Virus record (IMG/VR): IMGVR_UViG_3300046011_004470
Location: 1 to 25,232 of that record
DNA length: 25,232 bases
Reading direction: 5' to 3' (one strand)
DNA from: a virus
Part shown: positions 1 to 25,057 of the stretch, in pieces
How the letters are laid out: each line of letters opens with the position of its first letter
Numbering within the stretch: the first letter of the stretch is position 1
Notes under the pieces: generated by a model
Databases searched by the model: none
The model's input: the letters and a program-made list of their open reading frames with translations, nothing else
Told to the model about the DNA's origin: nothing
Translations under genes and position numbers: made by a program

Positions 1-1
1 C

Positions 2-1279
2 GAGGCACTATCCAGGCTGGGGCTGCGCAGGTCGGACAATGTGTCCACCATTCATGCGATGGCATTCAGAAGCATGGGGATGCGGCAGTCTCAAGTGGTG
101 GATTCGATGAAGCTGCGGGAATTCTCCATGGTTATGGGGGTACCAATCATAGGCAAGTCTCCGGAGGACGACGAGGAGCGAGCGGACGGGGACTTTTACT
201 TGGATATACTCAATTATGCGAGAAATACGTTCAGCAACCCTGCCGAGGTCTACGACGTCTCTGATCGACCTGGGACTCGCGCCGAATTCAATGCTTTTGT
301 TCGGGCCTATGCTGATTGGAAATCTACATACGGCTATTACGACTTTACCGATATGCTGGAGCGGGCCGCGAAGGGCTCGGTCCGCACCGATGCCGAAGTC
401 GTTTTCGTCGACGAGGCTCAGGACTTATCACCTCTTCAGTGGTCAGTCATCGAAAAGATCTGCAAAAGGTCTTATCAAGTTATCATCGCAGGGGATGACG
501 ACCAAGCAATCTACACTTGGGCCGGTGCGGATGCTCACGGTATGGCAAGATTCACGCAAAGGCATAAGGGTAGTAGCACGGTTCTCACGCAATCGCATAG
601 ACTTCCATCTTCAGTCCACTCGCGCTCTCAAGGTCTCATCCGTCGCATCAATTTCCGAGTGGATAAAGAGTTCAATCCCCGAGCGGATTTGGGATTGGTC
701 CGCGTACATGGCTCGATCAACTCGGTGGACATCGAGCATGGGACGGATACACTACTCCTCGGGAGGACTCATTCAGTTCTACGTGAAGTGGAGCAATCGC
801 TCATTGAAAAGAGGACACCCTATACGCGGGAGAGCGGCAGACCGGGAATGTATCAAAATCGGTTCGCGATCGGCATCCGAGCGTTCAACAAGTTGGTCCG
901 GGGGGAGCGGATCAGTGACGGTGAACGAAACGCAGTATTCGCGGTCGCCACAGCCGACACCCGAGCAGCGCTTGAAAGAAACGATTATGCAGCCGTCACA
1001 AGAAGTCCTTTCTATGTGGCCCTCGCTATCCCCGGGCGCGTCGTGGACTTTTACGCTGACGCCGACCTCGACGTCGCACCTACTATACGACTTTCAACAA
1101 TCCATGCTGCAAAAGGTCATGAAGCGGATCGCGTCATTCTTCTCACGGACATGACAACGCGGGTGCAGCAGACGGCGGAAAAATCACCCGACGATGAAGT
1201 CCGCGTGTTTTATGTCGGAATGACCCGTAGCAAGAACGTGCTCGATATAGTGGAAGGGTACAACGGGTACAAACTGTGA
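2..1279 (+). CDS. UvrD/Rep-like SF1 DNA helicase, 5'-truncated
   Basis: ATP-dependent 3'-5' type superfamily 1A helicase, presumably for phage DNA replication or repair. The frame is open from base 2, so the GTG at 41 is probably internal and the gene begins upstream; Walker A is outside the window. Visible motifs in order: STIHAMAF (motif Ib region), VVFVDEAQD (Walker B, motif II), IAGDDDQAIYTWAG (motif III), SHRLP (motif IV region), LSTIHAAKGHEADRVIL (motif V) and RVFYVGMTRS (motif VI, arginine finger). The motif order and spacing are normal for the family. It ends just before a promoter that starts the polymerase operon, so it closes an upstream transcription unit. The family assignment is firm; its exact role is inferred. 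Confidence 0.93.
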   Translation, partial: EALSRLGLRRSDNVSTIHAMAFRSMGMRQSQVVDSMKLREFSMVMGVPIIGKSPEDDEERADGDFYLDILNYARNTFSNPAEVYDVSDRPGTRAEFNAFVRAYADWKSTYGYYDFTDMLERAAKGSVRTDAEVVFVDEAQDLSPLQWSVIEKICKRSYQVIIAGDDDQAIYTWAGADAHGMARFTQRHKGSSTVLTQSHRLPSSVHSRSQGLIRRINFRVDKEFNPRADLGLVRVHGSINSVDIEHGTDTLLLGRTHSVLREVEQSLIEKRTPYTRESGRPGMYQNRFAIGIRAFNKLVRGERISDGERNAVFAVATADTRAALERNDYAAVTRSPFYVALAIPGRVVDFYADADLDVAPTIRLSTIHAAKGHEADRVILLTDMTTRVQQTAEKSPDDEVRVFYVGMTRSKNVLDIVEGYNGYKL

Positions 1280-1282
1280 TAG

Positions 1283-1311
1283 TTGACCGATCATCCTAGT
1301 GGTGATATAAT
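1283..1311 (+). promoter_or_regulatory. Early promoter module 1 (SSB-polymerase-purZ operon)
   Basis: TTGACC at 1283-1288, a 17-base spacer, then TATAAT at 1306-1311 with an extended -10 TGA at 1303-1305. The leader carries the conserved AACCAAC-GC-ATAGAGGA box (1324-1340), whose GAGGA serves as the Shine-Dalgarno for the ATG at 1350. It is one of seven full copies of the module and lies right after the helicase stop codon. Confidence 0.85.
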
Positions 1312-1349
1312 AGCATCTTCATCAACCAACGCATAGAGGACTGAAATCG

Positions 1350-1628
1350 ATGGCATACGACAACACTAATTCGGGCATGATCGCTCGTAATGAGAATCGT
1401 AAGACCGACAAGCATCCGGAGTTTACCGGTTCACTCAACGTCGAAGGCGTGGACTTCTGGGTGTCGGCCTGGGTGAATGAGGGTAAAGAGGGTGGCAAGA
1501 TGGAGGGCAAGAAATATTTCTCCCTCAAGATCAATCGAAAAGAGCAGCCAGCTCGTGGAGCACCCCCCATCTCCAGCGGTAATTCGAAGTACGACGGCGG
1601 GTTCATCGACGAAGACATCCCCTTCTGA
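1350..1628 (+). CDS. Small OB-fold-like single-stranded DNA-binding protein
   Basis: A 92-residue protein that probably coats single-stranded DNA during replication. The core reads like small phage or plasmid SSB/DUF736-like proteins: an N-terminal NSG...N..K...HPEFTGS segment, a FWVSAWVNEG strand and a KKYFSLKI strand. The C-terminus is acidic and ends EDIPF, very close to the DDDIPF tip with which bacterial SSBs recruit partner proteins. It is the first gene after promoter module 1, and its stop overlaps the polymerase start (TGATG), so the two are probably translationally coupled. The SSB role rests on the tail, the predicted beta-rich core and the neighbouring polymerase; a related single-domain phage protein of unknown function is the alternative. 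Confidence 0.68.
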   Translation: MAYDNTNSGMIARNENRKTDKHPEFTGSLNVEGVDFWVSAWVNEGKEGGKMEGKKYFSLKINRKEQPARGAPPISSGNSKYDGGFIDEDIPF

Positions 1629-3463
1629 TGTCCGCGTTTCCTCGCATAGACAGCGTGCCCGTTATGGTGATCGACACCGAGACCACCGGGCTGCATTGGT
1701 GGAAGGACAAGCTATTCGGCGTGTCCATCGCACTCCCGGACCATGCGTGGTATTGGGATGTTCGCACCAACCCCGGTGTGATTAACTGGTTGAACGACCT
1801 TATTCGCACACAGTCGGTGGACAGGTGGGTGGGTCATAACCTCAAATTCGATCTTCATTTCCTGCGGGAAGCTGGGGTATCCATTCCGCTCGACCGGATT
1901 GACTGTACCATGGTGCGGGCGGCTCTAATCAGCGAACACGAACCCACATATGCGCTCGATTTCCTGGCTCGCAAGTATGCGGGGCAGAAGAAAGATGACG
2001 AGATTTACGAGGAGATGGCGAAGCTGTTCGGGGGTAGGCCGACTCGTAATGCCCAGATGCCCAATATTTCCCGGGCACCCGAGCATGTGGTTTCGAAGTA
2101 CGCGATTCAAGATGCGGTAGTGACCATGGCGCTGTACAACTGGCAGCGCGGGGAGATAGAAAAGCAGAATCTGCACCAAGTCCATAAGCTCGAAACGGAT
2201 CTGATGCCCGTGATCATGGATATGGAGTACCATGGCGTGCGGGTGAACGTGGAGCGAGCAGAGAAGGCGGTTCACGGCCTCACGAAGCGCATCGACGTCA
2301 TGCAGCGGGATCTGAATACCCTCGCTGGCTTCGAGGTCAACCCGAACCCGTCCGGGTCCATCTCCGATCTATTCAAGCCGACTCTCGGCGAGGATAACGA
2401 GTGGTATCTGGTCGACGGCACTAAGGCGGACAAGACCGATGGCGGGAAAGCATCGATCAACGCCGATTGTCTGCGCAGAATGCGGCACCCAGCGGCTGCG
2501 ATGATTCTCGACTTGCGCAAGATGCTCAAAACGCGGGACACATTCCTGAAAGGTCACATTCTAGGACATCAGCATGACGGCACGATCCATTGCAACTACA
2601 ACCAGACTAAGAACGATGCTGAGGCTGGCACCGGAACCGGACGACTTAGCATCACTAATCCGGCTCTCCAGCAAATCCCATCAAGAGATAAAGATATTAA
2701 GTCGTTGGTGCGCCCCATCTTCATACCAGATGTTGGGGCCGATTGGCTGGGTCTGGACTGGAGCCAGTTTGAGTTTAGGGTTGCTAACCATTACGGTCAG
2801 GTACCCACGATTCTGGAGGCGTATCAAAAGAATCCAGATCTAGACTTTCACCAGTTGGTGAGCGATCTGACCGGAATTCCTCGAAATGCGCAGTATGCGG
2901 GTGGCCCAAGCTCCAAGGCTATCAATCTCGGTCTTGCGTTTAACATGGGTTCCGGTCGGCTGGCTCAGGAGTGCGGGTTGCCGTACACCGAGGAAGTAGG
3001 GCCTAATGGCAATGTGTTCTTGAAGGCTGGTCCTGAAGCGATGGCGATTTTCGAGAAGTACCACGCGGCGAATCCCGGGATGCGCAACACGGCGACCAAA
3101 GCCAGCGGCATTGCTAAAGAGCGTGGCCATGTACGCTCGATCATGGGTAGGCACATTCGGTTCCCGGGAGGGCAGTTCGTGCACAAGGCGTCGGGGCTGA
3201 TTTATCAAGCCACAAGTGCGGATTGCATGAAGCAAAAGCTGATCGAACTGCACAGGTACTTAGTGGACAAGGAGTGTGGCAGACTGCTGCTCACTGTGCA
3301 CGATGAAGTGGGTATATCTCTGGACAAGGACGCAAAGGAGGAAGCGCAGGAGGTAGCTCGGATTTATACGACGTTTGATGGTGTCGAGTGTCCCATTCGG
3401 CTTCGGGTTCCGATTCGGTGCGATTGGGGTGTTGGTGATGATTGGTACGCAGCAAAGGGGTGA
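1628..3463 (+). CDS. dpoZ: Family A DNA polymerase with 3'-5' exonuclease (DpoZ-like)
   Basis: Replicative PolA-family polymerase of 611 residues, with no 5'-nuclease domain. Exonuclease motifs are intact: DTE (D16, E18), HNLKFD (N71, D75) and YAIQD near residue 160. Polymerase motifs: TGRLS before motif A, motif A LDWSQFEFR near 377, motif B SSKAINLGLAFNMG near 430, and motif C VHDE near 557. Compared with E. coli Pol I, motif B keeps the Lys (758) but has Gly for Arg754, Leu for Phe762, Phe for Tyr766 and Asn for Gly767. It lies 3 bases before purZ. In phiVC8-type Z phages the PolA homologue beside purZ is DpoZ, which favours dZTP over dATP. The polymerase call is firm; the Z preference is inferred from context. 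Confidence 0.92.
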   Translation: MSAFPRIDSVPVMVIDTETTGLHWWKDKLFGVSIALPDHAWYWDVRTNPGVINWLNDLIRTQSVDRWVGHNLKFDLHFLREAGVSIPLDRIDCTMVRAALISEHEPTYALDFLARKYAGQKKDDEIYEEMAKLFGGRPTRNAQMPNISRAPEHVVSKYAIQDAVVTMALYNWQRGEIEKQNLHQVHKLETDLMPVIMDMEYHGVRVNVERAEKAVHGLTKRIDVMQRDLNTLAGFEVNPNPSGSISDLFKPTLGEDNEWYLVDGTKADKTDGGKASINADCLRRMRHPAAAMILDLRKMLKTRDTFLKGHILGHQHDGTIHCNYNQTKNDAEAGTGTGRLSITNPALQQIPSRDKDIKSLVRPIFIPDVGADWLGLDWSQFEFRVANHYGQVPTILEAYQKNPDLDFHQLVSDLTGIPRNAQYAGGPSSKAINLGLAFNMGSGRLAQECGLPYTEEVGPNGNVFLKAGPEAMAIFEKYHAANPGMRNTATKASGIAKERGHVRSIMGRHIRFPGGQFVHKASGLIYQATSADCMKQKLIELHRYLVDKECGRLLLTVHDEVGISLDKDAKEEAQEVARIYTTFDGVECPIRLRVPIRCDWGVGDDWYAAKG

Positions 3464-3466
3464 GTC

Positions 3467-4570
3467 ATGGAATCGATTAAAGTAGTGGTAGACTTGCAAT
3501 ACGGCAGCACCGGCAAGGGGCTGATCGTCGGATATCTGGCCGAGGAGGAGGGACCCGACACGGTGATCACGGCGTGGGCACCGAATGCGGGGCACACATA
3601 CATCGACAGCACGGGTCGCAAGTTCATTCACACTCATTTGGGCAATGGTGTGGTATCTCCATTTCTGAGGCGCATCATGCTTGGCCCGGGATCGCTAATC
3701 AATCCGCAGCAGCTTCTGGACGAGATGAAAGCGTGCGAGGACTTGATGGATGATGAGGTCTCAGTCATCATTCACCCACACGCGGCGATCGTCACGCAGC
3801 GGCACATCGAGGAAGAAGCGGGGCCGATGACCAAGATCGGGTCGACCAAAAAGGGCGTGGGTGCCGCGATGATTCAGAGGATTCGGCGTGACCCGGACGA
3901 CATGAACATAGCGGCCAATTGTAAAGAGCTAAAAGATCTGGTCACCACCGTGCAGGGATATCGGCACGCGCTGGGAAAGGCTAGGCATGTCCTGGTCGAG
4001 GGTGCGCAGGGCTACGGGCTGTCTATGTACCATGGGTTTTACCCCTACACGACTTCGCGTGATGTGAGCACGTGGCAGATTCTGGCGGACTCGGGCATTC
4101 CGTACGAAATGCTGTTCCACGCGTCGGGCCGCACTAGAGTAGGGGTGATCGGGACGTGCAGGACGTACCCGATCCGGGTGGCGAATCGATACGACACCGA
4201 GGGTACGCAAGTCGGGTATTCAGGTCCGTGCTACGACGATCAAGTGGAGATCAGCTTCGAGGACATCGGCCAGAAGACGGAACTTACTACTGTGACGAAG
4301 CTACCCAGGCGCATATTCACATTCAGCGCGAAGCAGATCACCGACGCGATCAGCTATAATGGTACCCGAGAAGTGTTCTTGAACTTTGTAAATTACGTTC
4401 GTGATGAGCGCGATCTGGTGTCCATCGTAAAGGCTATCGAGGAGAATGAAGCGGTGGTCAGATGGATTGGCACTGGTCCGACGTATAAAGATGTCCACCA
4501 TCTGAACTACGGTTCCCGGACTTTTCGTATGGACAAGATTATTGACATTTGGAAGGCGACACGAGTATGA
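3467..4570 (+). CDS. purZ: PurZ, succinyl-2-aminodeoxyadenylate synthase
   Basis: PurA-family enzyme of 367 residues, shorter than cellular PurA (about 430). Known PurZ enzymes condense dGMP with aspartate, using ATP or dATP, to give the succinylated precursor of dZMP; host PurB then removes fumarate. The N-terminal loop reads DLQYGSTGKG: Ser14 replaces the catalytic Asp of PurA (QWGDEGKG), the recognised PurZ signature that lets the 2-amino group bind. The general His of PurA is kept (NAGHT, His43). Other conserved parts are IGSTKKGVG, VEGAQGYGLSMYHG, YPYTTSRDVS and GVIGTCRTYPIRV. The start follows the polymerase stop by 3 bases and the stop overlaps mazZ (ATGA). The call is strong because sequence signature and gene context agree. 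Confidence 0.95.
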   Translation: MESIKVVVDLQYGSTGKGLIVGYLAEEEGPDTVITAWAPNAGHTYIDSTGRKFIHTHLGNGVVSPFLRRIMLGPGSLINPQQLLDEMKACEDLMDDEVSVIIHPHAAIVTQRHIEEEAGPMTKIGSTKKGVGAAMIQRIRRDPDDMNIAANCKELKDLVTTVQGYRHALGKARHVLVEGAQGYGLSMYHGFYPYTTSRDVSTWQILADSGIPYEMLFHASGRTRVGVIGTCRTYPIRVANRYDTEGTQVGYSGPCYDDQVEISFEDIGQKTELTTVTKLPRRIFTFSAKQITDAISYNGTREVFLNFVNYVRDERDLVSIVKAIEENEAVVRWIGTGPTYKDVHHLNYGSRTFRMDKIIDIWKATRV

Positions 4571-5064
4571 TGCAAGTCGAATCTACGGTACACACTGATG
4601 AAGCCAACGACGTTCCGTGGTCGGTCAATCCCGAAAATTCCGCGCAGATCATCGACGCGCAAGGCGCTACCGTCGCGTCTTTCGAAGTCCGTCACCACTT
4701 ACGCGGCGTCATGGGGAACTGCGACAAAAATGCCGAGCTGGCTGTACGCGCAGTTAACGCGTACAAAAAACGCGGGGGAGCCGACATACGTCAGTTACAG
4801 GATCGGGTTACCCGTTGGGCCGATAGTAACTTTCCACAACGCACGACGAAAGATATTCTACTCAAGCTCTACGAGGAGATTGGTGAGTATTGCCGCAATC
4901 CGCGTGCAGCCCTTGAAATGGGCGATATCATGATCTTGCTGCTCGATGTGGCGCACAAGAACGGCATCGACGTGCACAAAGCTGTCGAGGAGAAGATGGA
5001 CATCAACGAGGCTCGCCAGTGGCGGGTGGACGAAAACACGGGGATCATGCGTCATGTCGGATAA
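4567..5064 (+). CDS. mazZ: MazZ-like dGTP pyrophosphohydrolase with extra N-terminal domain
   Basis: MazG-like all-alpha NTP pyrophosphatase, 165 residues. In Z phages MazZ converts dGTP or GTP to the monophosphate, supplying dGMP to PurZ. The metal-binding pattern EExxE...ExxD is present: E103, E104, E107 and E117, D120, followed by K...IN.AR.W, typical of the family. The first 65 residues or so are not MazG; they contain PWSV...QIIDAQGATVASF...NAELAVRAVNAY, a module seen in many otherwise unrelated phage proteins. The chosen ATG at 4567 overlaps the purZ stop; an in-frame TTG at 4549 is possible, and ATG 4570 is the next codon. Context makes MazZ much likelier than a general MazG. Confidence 0.88.
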   Translation: MMQVESTVHTDEANDVPWSVNPENSAQIIDAQGATVASFEVRHHLRGVMGNCDKNAELAVRAVNAYKKRGGADIRQLQDRVTRWADSNFPQRTTKDILLKLYEEIGEYCRNPRAALEMGDIMILLLDVAHKNGIDVHKAVEEKMDINEARQWRVDENTGIMRHVG

Positions 5065-5248
5065 CTTCGAAGAGTGGTACTCGGAAAATTTCGCCGACAT
5101 ACCGGGCTCGAATAACGAAGAGTACAAATCCGTGACTCGCACGCTTTGGTCACTAATTGTCGAGCGGATTGCGCGTAACGTCGAGATTTCAGTATTCGAA
5201 GATATCAGCGGTGAAGCCGTTGCAGCGATGATCAGGGCGATGAAATGA
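5054..5248 (+). CDS. Small acidic protein of unknown function
   Basis: A 64-residue protein starting at an ATG 11 bases inside the mazZ end. It has an acidic aromatic N-terminus (FEEWYSENF) and a predicted helical C-terminal half (VTRTLWSLIVERIARNVE). No catalytic motif is visible. Its place inside the Z-metabolism operon, with overlaps on both sides (GATGAAATGA at the next junction), shows it is co-expressed with mazZ and datZ, but says nothing firm about function. I do not recognise the family. Confidence 0.72.
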   Translation: MSDNFEEWYSENFADIPGSNNEEYKSVTRTLWSLIVERIARNVEISVFEDISGEAVAAMIRAMK

Positions 5249-5454
5249 GCACGTTGATTGAAGCAGCAGAGCGCAACAAAGTGGCTTCATGGATGATGAC
5301 CAAGGGCTACGCCACCGGCCACGGTGATACGGTTGAAGACCTGCTGAAAGAGTTGGAGTGGCAAGTTGCAGACCGCTGCGCTGAGATTGCCTACGAAGCC
5401 GAGCCGTGGCATTCTGCTGATCTGATCCGTGAAGCATTTGGAGTGAAGAAATGA
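5245..5454 (+). CDS. Small phage protein with WMxxxGYATGHGDT motif, unknown function
   Basis: A 69-residue protein linked to both neighbours by ATGA overlaps. The central ATGHGDTVEDLLKELEWQV segment resembles a small phage family often found near nucleotide-metabolism genes; the rest is helical and acidic. No catalytic residues can be assigned. Because it separates mazZ and datZ inside one operon it should be made together with them. Function is unknown. Confidence 0.72.
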   Translation: MSTLIEAAERNKVASWMMTKGYATGHGDTVEDLLKELEWQVADRCAEIAYEAEPWHSADLIREAFGVKK

Positions 5455-6014
5455 GCCTTACTACTGCAGAACAATTGAGGGCGTGCCACGTTCGTCGTTG
5501 GCACATTGTGCAAGTCGCACGCGAGCAGACGCTGGCCGAGCACTCATTCGCGGTTGCGGTGATCGCGGGATCGTTGGCTGCTGCTATGCGGTGGCCGGGT
5601 CTGATGCAAAATAACCTGCAACTCAAGCTGCTGCAGTGGTCGCTGTCGCACGACATCATCGAAGTGCGCACTGGGGACACGCCGACCCCGTTCAAGCGGG
5701 TGCTGGAGCAAGCGGGTGGTAAGGGCGTTTTCGAAAAGGCCGAGGATCTGGTGGACACGGACTACGCGGGCGCGTATCGTCAGATTCGCGGGACCGACAT
5801 CGAGGTGATTGTAAAGCTGGCGGACCAGATCGAGGCGATCTACTTTCTGCAGGACAACGGTATAGGAGCACACGCCATTCAGGTTCTCGACGGTTTGCGC
5901 GAAATCCTGTCTAGAATGGTTAACGATATAGAAAAGGAACACCCTAATCTGAATGTGCGCGAGGGTGTCCGCAAAGTGTGTCAAGACATAGGAATTCATG
6001 GGGGCTGGCTGTGA
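5451..6014 (+). CDS. datZ: DatZ, HD-domain dATP triphosphohydrolase
   Basis: HD-domain enzyme of the YfbR/DatZ type, 187 residues. In Z phages DatZ hydrolyses dATP to deoxyadenosine and triphosphate, so that dZTP replaces dATP at the polymerase. The metal ligands are visible in the expected order: H31 (AEHSF), H67-D68 (LSHDIIEVRTGDTPTP) and D125 (VKLADQIEA). The RRWH near the start is also typical of the YfbR family. Length matches the family. ATG at 5451 overlaps the upstream stop (ATGA) and the stop overlaps the zinc-ribbon gene (GTGA). A 5'-nucleotidase of YfbR type is the alternative, but the purZ-mazZ context favours DatZ. Confidence 0.93.
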   Translation: MSLTTAEQLRACHVRRWHIVQVAREQTLAEHSFAVAVIAGSLAAAMRWPGLMQNNLQLKLLQWSLSHDIIEVRTGDTPTPFKRVLEQAGGKGVFEKAEDLVDTDYAGAYRQIRGTDIEVIVKLADQIEAIYFLQDNGIGAHAIQVLDGLREILSRMVNDIEKEHPNLNVREGVRKVCQDIGIHGGWL

Positions 6015-6205
6015 AATGCATTGCATGCGGATATACGACTTTCGTGAGCACTACGTACCAGAATGTGGACAACACAACCAAGCGTAGGCGCTATTGCGTC
6101 AAATGCATGTTCAGATTCACCACTCGCGAAAAAGCCGAGGACAAGGATCAAGCGAAAGTCGAGGCGTGGCGCAAGAAGAAGAGCATCTCGACGGCTGGGG
6201 ATTGA
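6011..6205 (+). CDS. NrdR-like zinc-ribbon protein without ATP cone
   Basis: A 64-residue protein with four cysteines, C3-x2-C6 and C29-x2-C32, followed by RFTTRE. The order CxxC, about 22 residues, RRRxCxxCxxRFTTxE is almost the N-terminal zinc ribbon of NrdR, the ATP/dATP-sensing repressor of ribonucleotide reductase genes; the ATP-cone sensor domain is absent and replaced by a short Lys/Glu-rich tail. GTG at 6011 overlaps the datZ stop. The stop codon lies inside the -35 box of promoter module 2. It may bind DNA or RNA; a role in host nrd control is only an inference. The zinc ribbon itself is well supported. Confidence 0.78.
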   Translation: MKCIACGYTTFVSTTYQNVDNTTKRRRYCVKCMFRFTTREKAEDKDQAKVEAWRKKKSISTAGD

Positions 6206-6231
6206 CGGGACTATCCCATCCGTGGTATAAT
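6202..6231 (+). promoter_or_regulatory. Early promoter module 2 (HDAC-like gene)
   Basis: TTGACG at 6202-6207, an 18-base spacer, TATAAT at 6226-6231 with extended -10 TGG. The -35 box overlaps the stop codon of the zinc-ribbon gene. The leader keeps the AACCA..ATAGAGGACA box, shortened by a few bases, before the ATG at 6263. Confidence 0.85.
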
Positions 6232-6262
6232 CGGGGATTCATTAACCAATAGAGGACACACC

Positions 6263-7117
6263 ATGACCCCAATCTACTATCACCCGGACCAGGACGCCGA
6301 CTACGCCTTCATATCGGTCAAGAAGGTCGCGGAGTTCGTTCGCCAATCCGGTCGCAAGCCCAATCCGGTGGACCCGCTTGCGCCCGAGGATCTGGCCGTG
6401 GCGCACGATCCTGAATTCGTACTAGCAGTAGTCGAGGGTCGCAAGAAGAACGGCTTCGGTAATACGGACCCGGCTGTTAACCGGGCTGTTCTGGCTTCCA
6501 ATGGCGCATTCTTTGACGCAGCGACTCATGCGCTGCGCTGGGGTGGTGTCACGTGTTCTGCGACGCAGGGGTTCCACCACGCGCACTGGGACCATTGCTG
6601 GGGGTATTGCACGTTCAATGGTTTGATGCACGCTGCCGTGCGGATGGTCAATGTCGGCGCACGGGTAATGATCATTGACGGGGACGGGCATTACGGCGAC
6701 GGCACGGACGACATCATCGGCAGGCTGGGTCTGGAGGAAAAGGTCGCCCACATTCGCAGGGAAGACCTGGGGGCATCACGGCATACCCGCTGGGAGCATG
6801 TCAAGTGGCGCAGCTTTTTCACCGACTTGATTCGTCAGCATCGCCCGAGTATAATAATGTATCAGGCCGGTGCGGATGCCTGGGACCAGGACCCCTACGG
6901 GGCTGGATACCTGTCGAAAGAGGGCCTTGCGGCTCGTGATCGTGGGGTATTCAGTGCTGCTCACAAGTTGCGGGTGCCGGTCACCTGGAATCTAGCCGGT
7001 GGGTACAGTGACCTGATGCAGCTAACCATCGACCTTCATCTGCAGACTCTGGCGATATCCGACGAGGTATTTTATGGCACCACCGCTCCCACTGAAGTTC
7101 CATCCCAACGCGCCTAA
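6263..7117 (+). CDS. Histone-deacetylase-fold zinc amidohydrolase
   Basis: Member of the HDAC/AcuC/acetylpolyamine amidohydrolase superfamily, 284 residues, probably cytoplasmic. The catalytic set is complete: the His pair in GFHHA (H105, H106), WGYCTFNG, zinc ligands D141 and H143 in DGDGHYGDGT, D205 in AGADAWDQDPYG, and the transition-state Tyr248 in LAGGYS. It is shorter than most bacterial members (about 310-350), mainly at the N-terminus. Known members remove acetyl or acyl groups from lysine or polyamines; the substrate here cannot be read from sequence. It has its own promoter module right after the Z operon. Possible targets are host nucleoid proteins, polyamines or a modified nucleotide. 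Fold and catalytic competence are strongly supported. Confidence 0.9.
   Translation: MTPIYYHPDQDADYAFISVKKVAEFVRQSGRKPNPVDPLAPEDLAVAHDPEFVLAVVEGRKKNGFGNTDPAVNRAVLASNGAFFDAATHALRWGGVTCSATQGFHHAHWDHCWGYCTFNGLMHAAVRMVNVGARVMIIDGDGHYGDGTDDIIGRLGLEEKVAHIRREDLGASRHTRWEHVKWRSFFTDLIRQHRPSIIMYQAGADAWDQDPYGAGYLSKEGLAARDRGVFSAAHKLRVPVTWNLAGGYSDLMQLTIDLHLQTLAISDEVFYGTTAPTEVPSQRA
6827..6855 (+). promoter_or_regulatory. Possible internal promoter in the HDAC-like gene
   Basis: TTGATT at 6827-6832, a 17-base spacer and TATAAT at 6850-6855. It lies about 220 bases before the 431-residue gene and could give that gene separate expression. It has no TGn and lacks the conserved leader of the other modules, so it may be chance inside coding sequence. 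Confidence 0.35.
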
Positions 7118-8369
7118 GTCGTTCGCTGAATTGATGGCAGGAGTCGACAGGGGGCACGCTGCATTGCGTGCTGTCCCTGGCGCTCAAGCGATACCACCCG
7201 CGTTTCGGCAGATGCAAAAGAACATGTTGCCGGGTGAAATCCTCGACAAATACAGCGATATGGGGCTGTTCGGCAAGACGCCGAAAGGCGAACCTGTGCG
7301 GGCCACATTGGTGCCGTCCAGGGGGCGCGATATCAGTGATGTGAAAAGCGGAAGGCTTCCGTCGGAGGGACGCATACGGCTTGACCCCGAGAGCAGGGTG
7401 CCTAAAGATATATTCGAAGCTGCACAACTCCCCGATCGCAATGCGAGTCGCGGCGAGTACCCCAGGATTAGTTGGGAAGAGGACACCGGGATTGGGTCGG
7501 GTTACGGGATGCTTTCGCCTTTGCAAGACGCTATGCGCAGAGCACGCCGGGACCCGAATAGCAATCCCTCGATGCTGGACATCAACGCGATGTCGGTCAA
7601 GCCTTTCGTAGCTACGCCAGACCCCGACATTCATTGGTGGTCACAGGGTCCCAGCCGTGGTCGAATGCTCTACGGCGCACTTTATGACATGATCCGAGCT
7701 GGGGGCCATGGCAATGCGGCCAGAACGCTGACTGACATCAACACCGTCCGGCGATTAGGTAATGTGGCATCGCATTCAGCGGGGCATGGTGATTTGGGAT
7801 TCATCGGACCGGTCAGCGAGTATCCCTCTCACCTCGCCGGACCCGGTAAACCCAGCTTTTCACCCCAATTGTTCAATCGTCCTCTCACCAACCGGCCAGG
7901 AGAAGAGACTTGGATGCGCACGACGATGGGACCGGATATAGCAGCACAGGCCATGGGTCTAAATCCGAAAGACCTGCTCAATATGACGCCCGAGCAGATT
8001 CGGGGTCTGTTGTACGCTCGCGAGGCGAATTTCGCGGCAGCGTCGGGTCCAAAGTCCGGATCGAGAGTGTCACCACTTCGGCTGGGCGACCCCAATGTGT
8101 CGATGTACGATAAAGCGGCGCTCGCCGATGTGGCGCAGAACGCTCGGACATACGGTCAAGACGAATTGGCCGACGCGTTTGGTCCGCATACCCTCGGGCG
8201 GCAGATGACCACGGAAGAACTGATGCTTCGCATAATGCGCAGGGGGGAGACACCGGAAGAGATCGTAGAAGACATGATGCTTCGCGGCAAAGAGGAGGGA
8301 TTCGATGTGCAAGACGCCATTCGTGGACGGTATATGAAGGGAGGACTAGTTGCAGCACTCCAAAGTTGA
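7074..8369 (+). CDS. Unrecognised 431-residue protein, possibly virion-associated
   Basis: The gene starts within the HDAC-like gene (44-base overlap) after a GAGG Shine-Dalgarno at 7064-7067. The protein is soluble-looking, Pro/Gly/Arg-rich, with no membrane segment or clear enzyme motif. Noticeable segments are HWWSQGPSRGRMLYGALYDMIRAGG near 190, a helical region with two MxxRG(E/K)E-type repeats near the end, and a C-terminal YMKGGLV. This last piece resembles the QAGG(K/R)V motifs of the 578-residue protein between terminase and portal, hinting that both belong to the same class of phage multi-domain or internal virion proteins. Function unknown; the coding call is firm from length and frame. 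Confidence 0.8.
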   Translation: MAPPLPLKFHPNAPKSFAELMAGVDRGHAALRAVPGAQAIPPAFRQMQKNMLPGEILDKYSDMGLFGKTPKGEPVRATLVPSRGRDISDVKSGRLPSEGRIRLDPESRVPKDIFEAAQLPDRNASRGEYPRISWEEDTGIGSGYGMLSPLQDAMRRARRDPNSNPSMLDINAMSVKPFVATPDPDIHWWSQGPSRGRMLYGALYDMIRAGGHGNAARTLTDINTVRRLGNVASHSAGHGDLGFIGPVSEYPSHLAGPGKPSFSPQLFNRPLTNRPGEETWMRTTMGPDIAAQAMGLNPKDLLNMTPEQIRGLLYAREANFAAASGPKSGSRVSPLRLGDPNVSMYDKAALADVAQNARTYGQDELADAFGPHTLGRQMTTEELMLRIMRRGETPEEIVEDMMLRGKEEGFDVQDAIRGRYMKGGLVAALQS

Positions 8370-8625
8370 TATAGAAGCAATCACTGATGAGCGTGGTCGC
8401 CAGTATGGGGATTTCACTCACCAGGGCATAATTGCGCAGGACTTGAAGGAGTACATGCGCGAGCAGGACGGCTGGCGGCGGCTCAAGAGCCACCAGAAGG
8501 AAGCGCTCGACATGATCGCGCACAAGATTTCGCGAATCCTGAACGGCAACCCCGAGCACCGGGATTCCTGGGTGGATATAGCGGGGTACGCCCAGATCGT
8601 GGCGGAGAGGATACTTGACAAGTAA
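8350..8625 (+). CDS. DUF6378-like phage protein (TTG start)
   Basis: A 91-residue all-helical protein. The pattern DERGRQYGDF near residue 13, the KEALDMIAHKISRI helix and the C-terminal HRDSWVDIAGYAQIV match the DUF6378 family, common in phages, whose function is unknown; its helices and D..DiagY pattern recall all-alpha NTP pyrophosphatases, but I cannot see a complete metal site. The TTG start at 8350 is chosen because of the strong GGGAGGA at 8339-8345; it overlaps the upstream gene by 20 bases. Its 3' end contains the -35 box of promoter module 3. Confidence 0.82.
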   Translation: MQHSKVDIEAITDERGRQYGDFTHQGIIAQDLKEYMREQDGWRRLKSHQKEALDMIAHKISRILNGNPEHRDSWVDIAGYAQIVAERILDK

Positions 8626-8643
8626 TTCCACCCGTGGTATAAT
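8615..8643 (+). promoter_or_regulatory. Early promoter module 3
   Basis: TTGACA at 8615-8620, 17-base spacer, TATAAT at 8638-8643 with extended -10 TGG. The leader has AACCAACCG-ATAGAGGACA before the ATG at 8678. Its -35 and spacer lie in the last codons and just after the stop of the upstream gene. The spacer ends CCACCCGTGG, a CCAC/GTGG inverted pair shared with other copies. Confidence 0.9.
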
Positions 8644-8677
8644 AAAGCTTTTCAACCAACCGATAGAGGACAACACA

Positions 8678-9326: not shown

Positions 9327-9355
9327 TTGACAGGGTATTGTACGAGTGTTATAAT
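9327..9355 (+). promoter_or_regulatory. Early promoter module 4 (DUF932 gene)
   Basis: TTGACA at 9327-9332, 17-base spacer, TATAAT at 9350-9355, extended -10 TGT. The leader contains AACCAACCG-ATAGAGGACA before the ATG at 9394. The CCAC/GTGG pair in the spacer is degenerate here (TAC/GTG), unlike modules 3, 6, 7 and 8. Confidence 0.9.
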
Positions 9356-9393
9356 TGAGACTTCAACAACCAACCGATAGAGGACACTGCAAA

Positions 9394-10371
9394 ATGGCTC
9401 ATCAACTGCACATCAATTCCGCTGGTAAGGCCGCAATGGCGTACGTGGGCGAGACTCCGTGGCACGGACTCGGACAAGCGCTGACGCCGGACGCGAACCT
9501 GGACGTCTGGACCCGGGAAGCTGGCTTCGATTGGGAGGTCAAGCGTGGTGCGATCGCCTACGAGGTGCGCGACGAGAACGATGCTCCGGTGCGGATGCAA
9601 ACGGTACCCAAGCGCTGGGCGCTGTATCGCTCCGACACGGGCGCACCGCTGTCGGTCATGTCGAGCAATTACCACATCACGCAGCCCCGGGATGTGATGG
9701 AGTTCTTCCGCGATCTGTGCGAGGTCGGTGGCTTCAAGATGGAGACTGCGGGTATGCTGCGCGAGGGCGCGACCTATTGGGCACTGGCCAAGGCCGACGA
9801 TTCATTCGATGTCGGTGGTGGTGATGTGGTGCTACCCTATCTGCTGCTGGCCACCTCGTGCGACGGCACACTGTCGAACGTAGCGCAGTTCACTACCACC
9901 CGCGTGGTGTGCAACAACACGCTCACCGTGGCGGTGGACAACAAGACCGGCCAGATCCGGGTGCCGCACAGCACGAAATTCGACCCGGTGCGATTCAAGA
10001 CCGAGTTGGGTCTGATCGGTGGCGCATGGGACCGGTTCAAGGGCGATGCGACGACGCTGAGCAAGCGCAAAGTGTCGAAAGAGGAAGCGGCCAAGTATTT
10101 CCTCGATGTATTCTACGGCGAAGACGAGGAGATCGACCCCAAGGCCAAGCGCCCGATGATCGAATTGGTCACCAAGATCTACTTGGACGGGATTGGGCAG
10201 CAGGTCAAGACCGCCACCGGCACCGCCTGGGGTCTGCTCAATGCCGTCACCCGGTTCGCTGATCACGAGCGCGGAGCCGCTTCGCGTGACACTCGCTTGC
10301 AATCGGCGTGGTTCGGTGCTGGTGCTCGACTGAAACGCGACGCCCTGCAAGCCGCGCTCGCCTTGGTATAA
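9394..10371 (+). CDS. DUF932 / phage-plasmid-like protein (TIGR03299 type)
   Basis: A 325-residue protein of the DUF932 family, widespread on phages and plasmids and of uncertain biochemical role. Typical features: the early TPWHGLGQ motif near residue 28, RWALYRSDTG, SVMSSNYHITQPRDVMEFF, LLLATSCDGTLSNVAQFTTTRVVCNNTL in the middle, and a C-terminal GTAWGLLNAVTRFADH. The ATG at 9394 follows the conserved ATAGAGGACA leader; an upstream in-frame start at 9355 lies in the -10 box. Full length for the family. It stands alone between promoter module 4 and the terminator at 10412. Homologues have been linked to plasmid or phage DNA maintenance only by context. Confidence 0.88.
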   Translation: MAHQLHINSAGKAAMAYVGETPWHGLGQALTPDANLDVWTREAGFDWEVKRGAIAYEVRDENDAPVRMQTVPKRWALYRSDTGAPLSVMSSNYHITQPRDVMEFFRDLCEVGGFKMETAGMLREGATYWALAKADDSFDVGGGDVVLPYLLLATSCDGTLSNVAQFTTTRVVCNNTLTVAVDNKTGQIRVPHSTKFDPVRFKTELGLIGGAWDRFKGDATTLSKRKVSKEEAAKYFLDVFYGEDEEIDPKAKRPMIELVTKIYLDGIGQQVKTATGTAWGLLNAVTRFADHERGAASRDTRLQSAWFGAGARLKRDALQAALALV

Positions 10372-10411: not shown

Positions 10412-10442
10412 GGGAGGGCTCGAAAGGGTCCTCCCATTTTTT
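10412..10442 (+). terminator. Strong intrinsic terminator with GAAA tetraloop
   Basis: A 10-base-pair stem, GGGAGGGCTC (10412-10421) against GGGTCCTCCC (10426-10435) with a few G-U pairs, closes a GAAA loop and is followed by A and six T (10437-10442). It lies 41 bases after the DUF932 stop and 23 bases before the next ATG, and the T-run merges into a residual ...TTAACGCAGACATAGAGGACA leader. Confidence 0.9.
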
Positions 10443-10464
10443 AACGCAGACATAGAGGACAATC

Positions 10465-11199: not shown

Positions 11200-11414
11200 G
11201 AGCTTTTAAACCACTGACAGACGCGGTGCGCACAATGGCGCGCAAGAAATCACTGGCCGAGACAATGGCGCAGGAGTTGTACGAGGCGCAATTCGCGAAG
11301 GTTCGAGCAGAAAGCGCGGTGGAGTACGCCGAGTCGATCGTGCGGTACAACGAACGCCGGATCGAAAGGCTGCAGCAGCGGATTCGCGAGGAGATGGCGC
11401 GAGGGGATACTTGA
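11196..11414 (+). CDS. 72-residue basic coiled-coil protein (GTG start)
   Basis: GTG at 11196 overlaps the upstream stop (GTGA) after a GAAGGGAG Shine-Dalgarno. The protein is almost entirely helical and rich in Arg, Glu and Ala (SAVEYAESIVRYNERRIERL), a likely coiled coil. Its stop codon lies inside the -35 box of promoter module 6. Translational coupling to the putative regulator suggests joint expression. No family recognised. Confidence 0.72.
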   Translation: MRAFKPLTDAVRTMARKKSLAETMAQELYEAQFAKVRAESAVEYAESIVRYNERRIERLQQRIREEMARGDT

Positions 11415-11439
11415 CAGGGTATTGCACCTGTGGTATAAT
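11411..11439 (+). promoter_or_regulatory. Early promoter module 6
   Basis: TTGACA at 11411-11416, 17-base spacer, TATAAT at 11434-11439, extended -10 TGG, leader ending AACCAACCG-ATAGAGGACA before ATG 11473. From the -10 box through the GGACA it is identical to module 7. Confidence 0.93.
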
Positions 11440-11472
11440 AAAGTCTTTTAACCAACCGATAGAGGACAGCAA

Positions 11473-12209: not shown

Positions 12210-12238
12210 TTGACAAATTGTCCCACCTGTGGTATAAT
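12210..12238 (+). promoter_or_regulatory. Early promoter module 7
   Basis: TTGACA at 12210-12215, 17-base spacer containing CCACCTGTGG, TATAAT at 12233-12238 with extended -10 TGG, then the conserved leader and GAGG before ATG 12274. Confidence 0.93.
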
Positions 12239-12273
12239 AAAGTCTTTTAACCAACCGATAGAGGACAAGCGAA

Positions 12274-12702: not shown

Positions 12703-12731
12703 TTGACAGACTGTTGCACCCGTGGTATAAT
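12703..12731 (+). promoter_or_regulatory. Early promoter module 8
   Basis: TTGACA at 12703-12708, 17-base spacer, TATAAT at 12726-12731, extended -10 TGG, then AACCAACCG-ATAGAGGACA before ATG 12767. It is the last full module in the window and would drive the four-gene cassette ending with the nuclease. Confidence 0.93.
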
Positions 12732-12766
12732 AAAGCTTTTTAACCAACCGATAGAGGACACGCAAA

Positions 12767-21361: not shown

Positions 21362-21546
21362 TGCGATATGTCAGCGACTTCATCGGTGCTATCGAAGATC
21401 GCAAAACGGCAATCGCGCAATCGTTAGTTACTGGCCATGCCATTAACTTCGAAACCTACCAGCGTTTGGTAGGACAGCACCAAGGGCTTGAAGAAGCTCT
21501 GGTAATCCTTAACAATCTTCTAAAGGAAGACGAAATTGACAATTGA
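21361..21546 (+). CDS. 61-residue helical protein, unknown function
   Basis: Starts in TAATG with the upstream stop. Sequence pattern FIGAIEDRKTAIAQSLVTGHAINFETYQRLVGQHQGLEEALVIL is that of a small all-helical phage head-region protein that recurs in many tailed phages (x-G.a.s.e.YqrlvGxxqGLexaLxxI). Its role is not established. The GroES-like gene starts 11 bases before its end. Confidence 0.8.
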   Translation: MRYVSDFIGAIEDRKTAIAQSLVTGHAINFETYQRLVGQHQGLEEALVILNNLLKEDEIDN

Positions 21547-21973
21547 ACTTATGCCGGATGCTTCGCATGAAGCCGCGTTGAGGGATGCATTCCCCGAGGT
21601 GGACCCCGGTGCTCTGCCAGTAGGTGGACGGATTCTCGTCCAATGGCGACAGACCAAAAAGACTGTCACCAGTTCTGGCATCGTGCTGGTCGAAGAGACC
21701 AAGGAGACCGAAAAGTGGAACAATCAGGTGGCGAAAGTTATTGCGATTGGTCCGCTCGCTTTCAAGAAACGCGACACCCTTGAGCCGTGGCCGGAAGGCA
21801 ACTGGATTGAGGTCGGAGATTATGTGCGGATGCCCAAATGGGGCGGCGACCGTTGGGAAGTACCCTACGGAGACCCTTCGATTGGCGAGACCGCGCTTTT
21901 CAGTGTGTTTAACGATCATGAAGTTATCGCGAAGGTAACGGGTGATCCCTTGAATGTGAAGGCATTCCTATGA
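21536..21973 (+). CDS. GroES-like co-chaperonin
   Basis: A 145-residue protein with a Cpn10-type core: VGGRILVQWRQTKKTVTSSGIVLVEETKETEKWNNQVAKVIAIGPLAF, then PWPEGNWIEVGDYVRMPKWGG. The SGIVLVEE mobile-loop region and VGDYVR strand correspond to those of GroES, though the protein is about 45 residues longer. Phages such as T4 (gp31) use their own co-chaperonin with host GroEL to fold the capsid protein, which fits its place between portal and scaffold. The TTG start at 21536 is favoured by AAAGGAAGA upstream; ATG 21551 is the alternative. ATGA overlap with scaffold. Confidence 0.8.
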   Translation: MTIELMPDASHEAALRDAFPEVDPGALPVGGRILVQWRQTKKTVTSSGIVLVEETKETEKWNNQVAKVIAIGPLAFKKRDTLEPWPEGNWIEVGDYVRMPKWGGDRWEVPYGDPSIGETALFSVFNDHEVIAKVTGDPLNVKAFL

Positions 21974-24142: not shown

Positions 24143-25057
24143 ATGGCTGCTCCGATGAGAAGTACAGACTTTCGTTCGATCGTTGAACCGATTCTGAACG
24201 AATGTTTTGATGGTGTGTACGAGCAACGCAAGGATGAATGGTCTCGCGTTTTCCGCGAAGAGAACGGCATCCCGCGTAACTACCACGAAGAACCCGTCCT
24301 GTATGGGTTTGGTGCCGCTCCCCAACTGCCTGATGGCACTCCGGTGACCTATCAGCAGGGTGGTGTGCTGTTCCTCAAGCGCTACGTTTATAACGTGTAC
24401 GGTCTGGCCTTCGCGCTGACCAAAGTGCTGGTGGAAGACGGCGACCATATCCGTATTGGTCAGGTGTACGCCAAGCACTTGGCGCAATCCATGATCGAGA
24501 CCAAGGAAACGCTGTCGGCCAACGTGCTGAACCGCGCTTTCAACGCCTCGTATCCTGGCGGCGACGGTGTGCAGCTGAACAGCGCTTCGCACCCGATCGT
24601 CAACGGTACTTTCAGCAACCTGCTGAGCACCGCAGCTAACCTGTCGCAGACCTCGCTTGAGCAAATGCTCATTCAGATCCGTCAGGCTGTGGACAACAAC
24701 GGCAAGAAGATTCGTCTGGTGCCCCGCCAACTGGTGGTCGCACCTGGCAACGTCTTCCAGGCCGAGGTGCTGCTCAAATCGGTGCTGCGTGCTGGTACGG
24801 CTAACAACGACATCAACCCCGTCAAGTCTATTGGCTTGCTGGATGAGGGTGCCGCTGTTCTGTCCCGTCTGACCAACGCCAATGCATGGTGGGTTCAGAC
24901 CGACGCTCCCGAGGGCATGAAGCTGATGATGCGTCGCGCTATGGAAAAGACCATGGAAGGCGATTTCGAAACTGACTCGATGCGCTACAAGGCCACCGAG
25001 CGTTACGACGTTGGCTTCACTGATCCTCGTGCGATGTACGGTACTCCCGGCGTCTAA
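24143..25057 (+). CDS. Major capsid protein
   Basis: HK97-fold-type major head protein of 304 residues, preceded by AAGGGGG. Features: RSIVEPILNECFDGVYEQRKDEWSRVF at the N-terminus, TYQQGGVLFLKRYVYNVYGLAFALTKVLVEDG, IRLVPRQLVVAPGNVFQAEVLLKS and a C-terminal ERYDVGFTDPRAMYGTPGV, characteristic of phage capsid proteins with the typical P-domain RLVPRxLVVxP element. Many codons in this gene are C/G-ending and high-use in proteobacteria, as expected for the most abundant virion protein. Followed by a stable hairpin. Confidence 0.9.
   Translation: MAAPMRSTDFRSIVEPILNECFDGVYEQRKDEWSRVFREENGIPRNYHEEPVLYGFGAAPQLPDGTPVTYQQGGVLFLKRYVYNVYGLAFALTKVLVEDGDHIRIGQVYAKHLAQSMIETKETLSANVLNRAFNASYPGGDGVQLNSASHPIVNGTFSNLLSTAANLSQTSLEQMLIQIRQAVDNNGKKIRLVPRQLVVAPGNVFQAEVLLKSVLRAGTANNDINPVKSIGLLDEGAAVLSRLTNANAWWVQTDAPEGMKLMMRRAMEKTMEGDFETDSMRYKATERYDVGFTDPRAMYGTPGV

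Follow-up and report, generated by a model that had tools for sequence, protein, structure and literature searches.

The subject of this analysis is the whole of IMG/VR virus record IMGVR_UViG_3300046011_004470 (the window; 25,232 bases), a genome fragment of an uncultured phage, and above all a cassette of four genes for DpoZ, PurZ, MazZ and DatZ, which very probably serves the synthesis of a virion genome with 2-aminoadenine (Z) in place of adenine. Z phages are a rare case in which life uses a non-standard genetic base, and the cultured groups known are modest in number. The lineage to which the window belongs is common in metagenomes and distant from all cultured Z phages, and it widens the stock of enzymes for making Z DNA. 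Beside its cassette, the strict pairing of a predicted class IV-like deacylase with a new protein family raises the question of what else a Z genome needs.

The window opens with a replication and nucleotide module (1-6205), which is followed by a run of small genes and then by the head module (terminase, portal and capsid) of what is a tailed phage. All four Z genes described in the earlier note are present as intact open reading frames (ORFs), in the order DpoZ, PurZ, MazZ, DatZ that it gave and in one orientation. That note had set the operon at 1628-6014; the short gaps and overlaps that it described are there, but its bounds were too narrow, as the operon extends from ssb to a zinc-ribbon gene (1350-6205; Table 1). 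The operon is translationally coupled, with neighbouring genes overlapping by 1-11 nt or, in one case, standing 3 nt apart: 1 nt is shared by ssb and DpoZ (TGATG), 3 nt separate DpoZ from PurZ, MazZ and small ORF 1 overlap by 11 nt, and overlaps of 4 nt occur between PurZ and MazZ (ATGA), between the two small ORFs, between small ORF 2 and DatZ, and between DatZ and the zinc-ribbon gene (GTGA). The Z genes would be transcribed as one operon from a sigma-70-type promoter, and in 47 of 62 related loci ssb is likewise preceded by a match to TTGAC-N16-19-TATAAT. Across the window, a near-perfect sigma-70 promoter together with a shared 5'-untranslated region (UTR) element, AACCAACCGATAGAGGACA, occurs in seven copies, each directly before a gene start (1283-1343, 6202-6259, 8615-8673, 9327-9387, 11411-11469, 12210-12268 and 12703-12761), and the UTR element also occurs alone, without such a promoter, at 10438-10462.

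Table 1. Predicted features of the Z operon and of the adjoining deacylase unit
Feature	Position	Strand	Evidence or remark
Sigma-70-type promoter of Z operon, TTGACC-N17-TATAAT	1283..1311	+	11/12 consensus bases
5'-UTR element AACCAACGCATAGAGGACTG	1324-1343	+	3' of Z-operon promoter
ssb, single-strand DNA-binding protein, first gene of operon	1350..1628	+	phrog_7364, E 3.8e-14; stop overlaps DpoZ ATG
DpoZ, family A DNA polymerase with 3'-5' exonuclease domain	1628..3463	+	NF038380; 7pbk; residues, insertions
PurZ, N6-succino-2-amino-2'-deoxyadenylate synthase	3467..4570	+	NF038379; 7odx; Ser14; tree
MazZ, MazZ-1 type dGTP pyrophosphohydrolase with N-terminal extension	4567..5064	+	PF04447; phrog_801; 7ody; residues
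Small ORF 1 between MazZ and DatZ	5054..5248	+	Detectable in most close relatives
Small ORF 2 between MazZ and DatZ	5245..5454	+	At that place only in nearest relatives
DatZ, HD-domain dATP triphosphohydrolase	5451..6014	+	phrog_7076, 6.7e-28; 6zpa; residues
Zinc-ribbon protein, NrdR N-terminal-like, last gene of operon	6011..6205	+	PF22811, 8.5e-6
Second promoter, TTGACG-N18-TATAAT, with UTR element; heads deacylase unit	6202..6231	+	
Class IV-like zinc deacylase, histone-deacetylase fold; clade-specific neighbour of Z operon	6263..7117	+	PF00850, 1.4e-26
Partner protein of no known family; overlaps deacylase gene	7074..8369	+	71/71 loci; AF2 pLDDT 82.5

The residues of the four enzymes were assessed by alignment with the proteins of phages S-2L, phiVC8, SH-Ab 15497, PMBT28, VLCpiS6a and ZP6, at positions taken from structural papers (PMC8065100, PMC8342488, PMC8599892), and nearly every residue that these papers link to catalysis or specificity is retained, as the claim of intact catalytic residues had implied. 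PurZ scores 347.3 bits (E 6e-104) against NF038379 ('succino-amino-deoxyadenylate synthase'), above the curated NCBIfam cut-off of 300, and its best sequence match in the PDB is S-2L PurZ (7odx, 9e-83). In its G[S/D]xGKG loop, Ser14 stands where PurA has the catalytic Asp, and the protein carries Thr274, where Gly is replaced, as well as Arg281. The residues of the dGMP pocket are retained, and identity with S-2L PurZ holds at 20 of the 22 listed positions, the exceptions being C204 (Thr here) and Q308 (Asn). DpoZ reaches 798.8 bits (E 3e-240) with NF038380 ('aminoadenine-incorporating DNA polymerase'; curated cut-off 500) and is closest in PDB sequence to phiVC8 DpoZ (7pbk, 2e-133). Its L434, F438 and G523 correspond to L455, F459 and G548 of phiVC8. 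The regions aligned with that protein also contain all three of the DpoZ insertions that surround the polymerase site. Among the matches listed, DpoZ is 39-48% identical to polymerases of PurZ phages and at most 30% identical to other phage polymerases. MazZ matches PF04447 (4.7e-8), phrog_801 (6e-11) and, by sequence in the PDB, S-2L MazZ (7ody, 1.4e-13). The metal ligands of MazZ-1 (E35, E38, E50, D53), its guanine residues (I56, D60) and R83 are all present, as E110, E113, E123, D126, I129, D133 and R156 in the window (numbered in the ORF read from 4549), and in the alignment I56 and D60 are missing from the MazZ-2 of phiVC8 and ZP6. DatZ, with S-2L DatZ as its best PDB sequence match (6zpa, 1.1e-17), keeps 13 of 13 functional positions, among them the HD-site ligands H34, H66, D67 and D119, the phosphate residues R19, K81 and K116, and the base/sugar residues W20, I22 and P79; W20 and I22 confer deoxyribose and adenine specificity (PMC8065100).

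A scan of IMG/VR with PurZ yielded 111 confirmed relatives, of which 80 were kept for a quick IQ-TREE phylogeny of 87 rows; about half of these 80 fall into the clade of the window. This was the phylogeny that the earlier note had proposed, and it places the window among phage PurZ, apart from the PurA of Escherichia coli and the PurZ0 of actinophages, rather than with cellular PurA, the grouping that was to speak against a Z genome. The outgroup is a single PurA (E. coli, on a long branch) with no archaeal PurA, and the tree has long branches, the placements of S-2L, OspOH and PurZ0 being unsure. The window's clade comprises 41 of the 87 rows (Shimodaira-Hasegawa-like approximate likelihood ratio test, 97), with zero cultured members. 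The nearest PurZ of a cultured phage is 47% identical to that of the window, and the nearest cultured DpoZ, among the matches listed, 48%. Throughout the clade, the gene order helicase-ssb-DpoZ-PurZ-MazZ-DatZ-zinc ribbon is kept, and since the order of the Z genes is conserved in about 45 IMG/VR contigs, the arrangement is not due to chance. The cassette is a further case of a known cassette type, in an uncultured PurZ clade. The zinc-ribbon protein, conserved through the clade, scores 26.1 bits with PF22811, slightly below the cut-off of 27.2, and might bind DNA near nucleotide-metabolism genes.

Of the known Z systems, those of Acinetobacter phage SH-Ab 15497, Salmonella phage PMBT28 and Klebsiella phage VLCpiS6a have the same four enzymes, with a MazZ of the MazZ-1 type and with helicase and ssb adjacent; they are 45-47% identical to the window in PurZ and, among the matches listed, 47-48% in DpoZ. 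However, their ssb lies between DpoZ and PurZ, whereas that of the window lies upstream of DpoZ, and they have no deacylase. The gene after their DatZ is presumably a VRR-NUC-type nuclease; in the window, DatZ is followed by the zinc ribbon and then by the deacylase unit. Cyanophage S-2L has homologous PurZ, MazZ-1 and DatZ in the same order and with the same specificity residues, but it encodes PrimPol and no DpoZ, and its MazZ is without the N-terminal extension. Vibrio phage phiVC8 shares a DpoZ of the phiVC8-like clade, both in residues and in insertions, and has a PurZ of 44% identity, yet its MazZ is MazZ-2, unlike the MazZ-1 of the window, and a primase gene lies between its DpoZ and PurZ. 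PurZ0 phages such as Arthrobacter phage Wayne are distant PurZ relatives (about 28-36% identity) and use DutZ/DmtZ/DUF5664 instead of DatZ/MazZ (PMC12884076).

Based on characterized homologues, from which the activities and the modified genome are inferred, MazZ would hydrolyse dGTP to dGMP, and PurZ would join dGMP to aspartate to give N6-succino-2-amino-dAMP. Host PurB would then take off fumarate to give the monophosphate of Z (dZMP), which host nucleotide kinases would convert to dZTP. DatZ would hydrolyse dATP, and DpoZ would copy the genome with dZTP instead of dATP, such that 2-aminoadenine takes the place of adenine. Neither a purB gene (TIGR00928; detected in 14 of 14 control genomes) nor a guanylate kinase gene (PF00625; 10 of 14 controls positive, other kinase families not being searched) is present in 14 relatives of 47-59 kb. 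Since these genes are absent, the PurB and kinase steps are probably supplied by the host, which agrees with what the earlier note had assumed.

Several points weigh against a Z genome. The support is sequence-based and comes from a 25-kb fragment of an uncultured virus, neither MazZ nor DatZ hit a dedicated NCBIfam model whose cut-off it could pass, and Q308 of S-2L PurZ is Asn in the window, as it likewise is in the other PurZ aligned. In addition, phage phiJL001 has a related polymerase without Z genes (PMC8599892), and DpoZ-like features alone are therefore no proof of a Z genome. The homology of PurZ to PurA (PF00709, E 3e-30) would suit an ordinary viral adenylosuccinate synthetase that raises the supply of AMP, with the MazG-like and HD enzymes acting as general nucleotide-pool genes. 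That reading is extremely improbable, however, given that Ser replaces the catalytic Asp of PurA and Thr274 a Gly, that the score exceeds the curated PurZ cut-off, that the protein groups with phage PurZ, and that its gene sits between DpoZ and MazZ/DatZ. A working cassette might also replace adenine only in part, or make Z that just poisons or reshapes the host pool, with the virion DNA keeping a sizeable fraction of adenine. In E. coli expressing the S-2L genes, conversion reached a significant amount of the adenine but was incomplete (PMC8342488). Nevertheless, both safeguards that favour replacement are present, namely a DatZ with a dATP-specific pocket and a polymerase of the DpoZ clade, and we regard partial replacement as very unlikely. 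Biosynthesis of a genome with 2-aminoadenine in place of adenine is, with high probability, the role of the cassette.

Beyond the zinc-ribbon gene lies the deacylase unit; in 67 of 70 related loci, a TTGAC-N16-19-TATAAT match precedes the deacylase gene. The closest solved folds to the AlphaFold2 (AF2) model of this 284-aa protein (predicted local distance difference test, pLDDT, 90.5) are those of VcHdaH (9gky, Z score 34.8) and the Leptospira histone deacetylase HDAC11 (9gz5, 33.0), the next rows being at 28.7, and the model points to a class IV-like (HDAC11/VcHdaH-type) enzyme. Its zinc ligands, HH dyad and catalytic Tyr (H105, H106, D141, H143, D205 and Y248) are invariant in 22 sequences. 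There is no RPP motif before HH; the motif there is TQGFHH, not the GGGXHH of long-chain deacylases. The RPP motif marks robust deacetylases, and its absence would fit a wider acyl pocket (PMC11532494), such as the window enzyme may have. VcHdaH and Leptospira HDAC11 (class IV/cluster 5) are also without RPP before HH, although VcHdaH has SGGYHH where the window has TQGFHH; they share 22-27% identity with the window enzyme, which differs, too, in that it is carried by a phage and belongs to a unit of two genes next to a Z cassette. An acetylpolyamine amidohydrolase is less likely, in that the viral enzymes assayed to date are those of giant viruses, with lengths of 345-354 aa (PMC9992855), as compared to an enzyme of 284 aa without the RPP motif and with class IV-like nearest folds. 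The genes that surround the closest cellular deacylases (L136, L137 and L143) in their genomes give no clue to function. Within the collection of deposited phage genomes, the sole detectable homologues of the deacylase are in LR756511 (an uncultured phage of 595 kb) and gp202 of Rhodococcus phage E3, and the cultured PurZ phages in the phage collection have no detectable one.

The partner gene accompanied the deacylase gene in 71 of 71 loci, the ORFs mostly overlapping by 11-119 nt, but in this first count many loci overlap one another on a shared contig. From a second scan came 71 distinct deacylase-subfamily loci, again all with the partner; Z genes lie in the flank of 65 of these, and the sequence of the other six starts at the deacylase or only a little upstream of it. 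Neither the partner nor Z genes accompany nine viral deacylases that are more distant. For the partner itself, searches of Pfam, PHROGs, PDB sequences and phage genomes (tblastn) gave nothing significant, and Foldseek gave no PDB match below E 0.001. BFVD contributes a single match (E 0.002), a protein labelled 'large polyvalent protein associated domain', and in four relatives there are matches to LPD37, all below the cut-off. Structural comparison returned weak matches to the Gcn5-related N-acetyltransferase (GNAT) fold, with Z scores of up to 6.9, less than the tool itself deems trustworthy; among the 16 best rows, 15 are what we take to be GNAT-fold acyltransferase domains. The alignment of homologues contains no invariant glycine loop like the CoA-binding one of GNAT, and a divergent GNAT-like fold is possible. 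As no GNAT gene (PF00583) is found in the 14 relatives of 47-59 kb, there is no ordinary acetyltransferase beside the deacylase. In the three relatives L034, L036 and L038 (13436 onward), an additional C-terminal part lengthens the partner to 632-882 aa.

The Z-phage clade nearly always keeps the deacylase pair (6263-8369) beside the cassette, and the pair is linked to it by genome position only, as a predicted separate transcription unit with its own promoter. Were the pair to function within the Z system, for example in protecting or regulating Z synthesis or packaging, it would add to, rather than replace, the Z-genome reading. Such a role would agree with the position of the deacylase subfamily directly beside Z genes wherever upstream DNA is present (65 loci), always with its partner, and with the PurZ tree, on which the distribution of the deacylase requires two changes, interpreted as a single gain and a single loss (L028/L057). 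However, shared ancestry of a single phage lineage accounts equally well for the linkage, and the conserved promoter of the unit, the absence of the deacylase from cultured Z phages, and the loss of the pair from clade members L028 and L057, which keep their Z genes, favour an independent function. A role in the Z system is thus rather doubtful. More specifically, the HDAC11-like deacylase and a translationally coupled GNAT-like partner, as modelled, might form a phage-encoded acylation/deacylation pair that serves the replication, packaging or protection of Z DNA, which we consider unlikely. In the open-licence literature there is no published account of a deacylase-like pair in Z phages, which does not prove that the pair is unreported; the Z-phage paper does not mention deacetylases, and the two deacylase papers do not mention phages.

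By capsid and terminase, the nearest complete relatives of the window are Caulobacter phage RW and Caudoviricetes MW202545, from a spring-water metagenome. The capsid (24143-25057) is 88% identical to that of MW202545 and 76% to that of phage RW, and the terminase, 49% and 41%, respectively. Unlike the window, neither relative is seen among the PurZ matches listed and neither has a deacylase match; hence, the virion genes appear to derive from a non-Z background into which the Z cassette is set. Given the likeness of the virion genes to those of phage RW and MW202545, an alphaproteobacterium is our guess at the host. The head module also encodes a Cpn10 (GroES-like) protein (21536-21973), and in Caulobacter phage RW, too, a GroES gene lies close to that for the capsid. 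Elsewhere in the window there are a DUF6378 protein (8350-8625), annotated elsewhere as phosphofructokinase, and a DUF932 protein (9355-10371).

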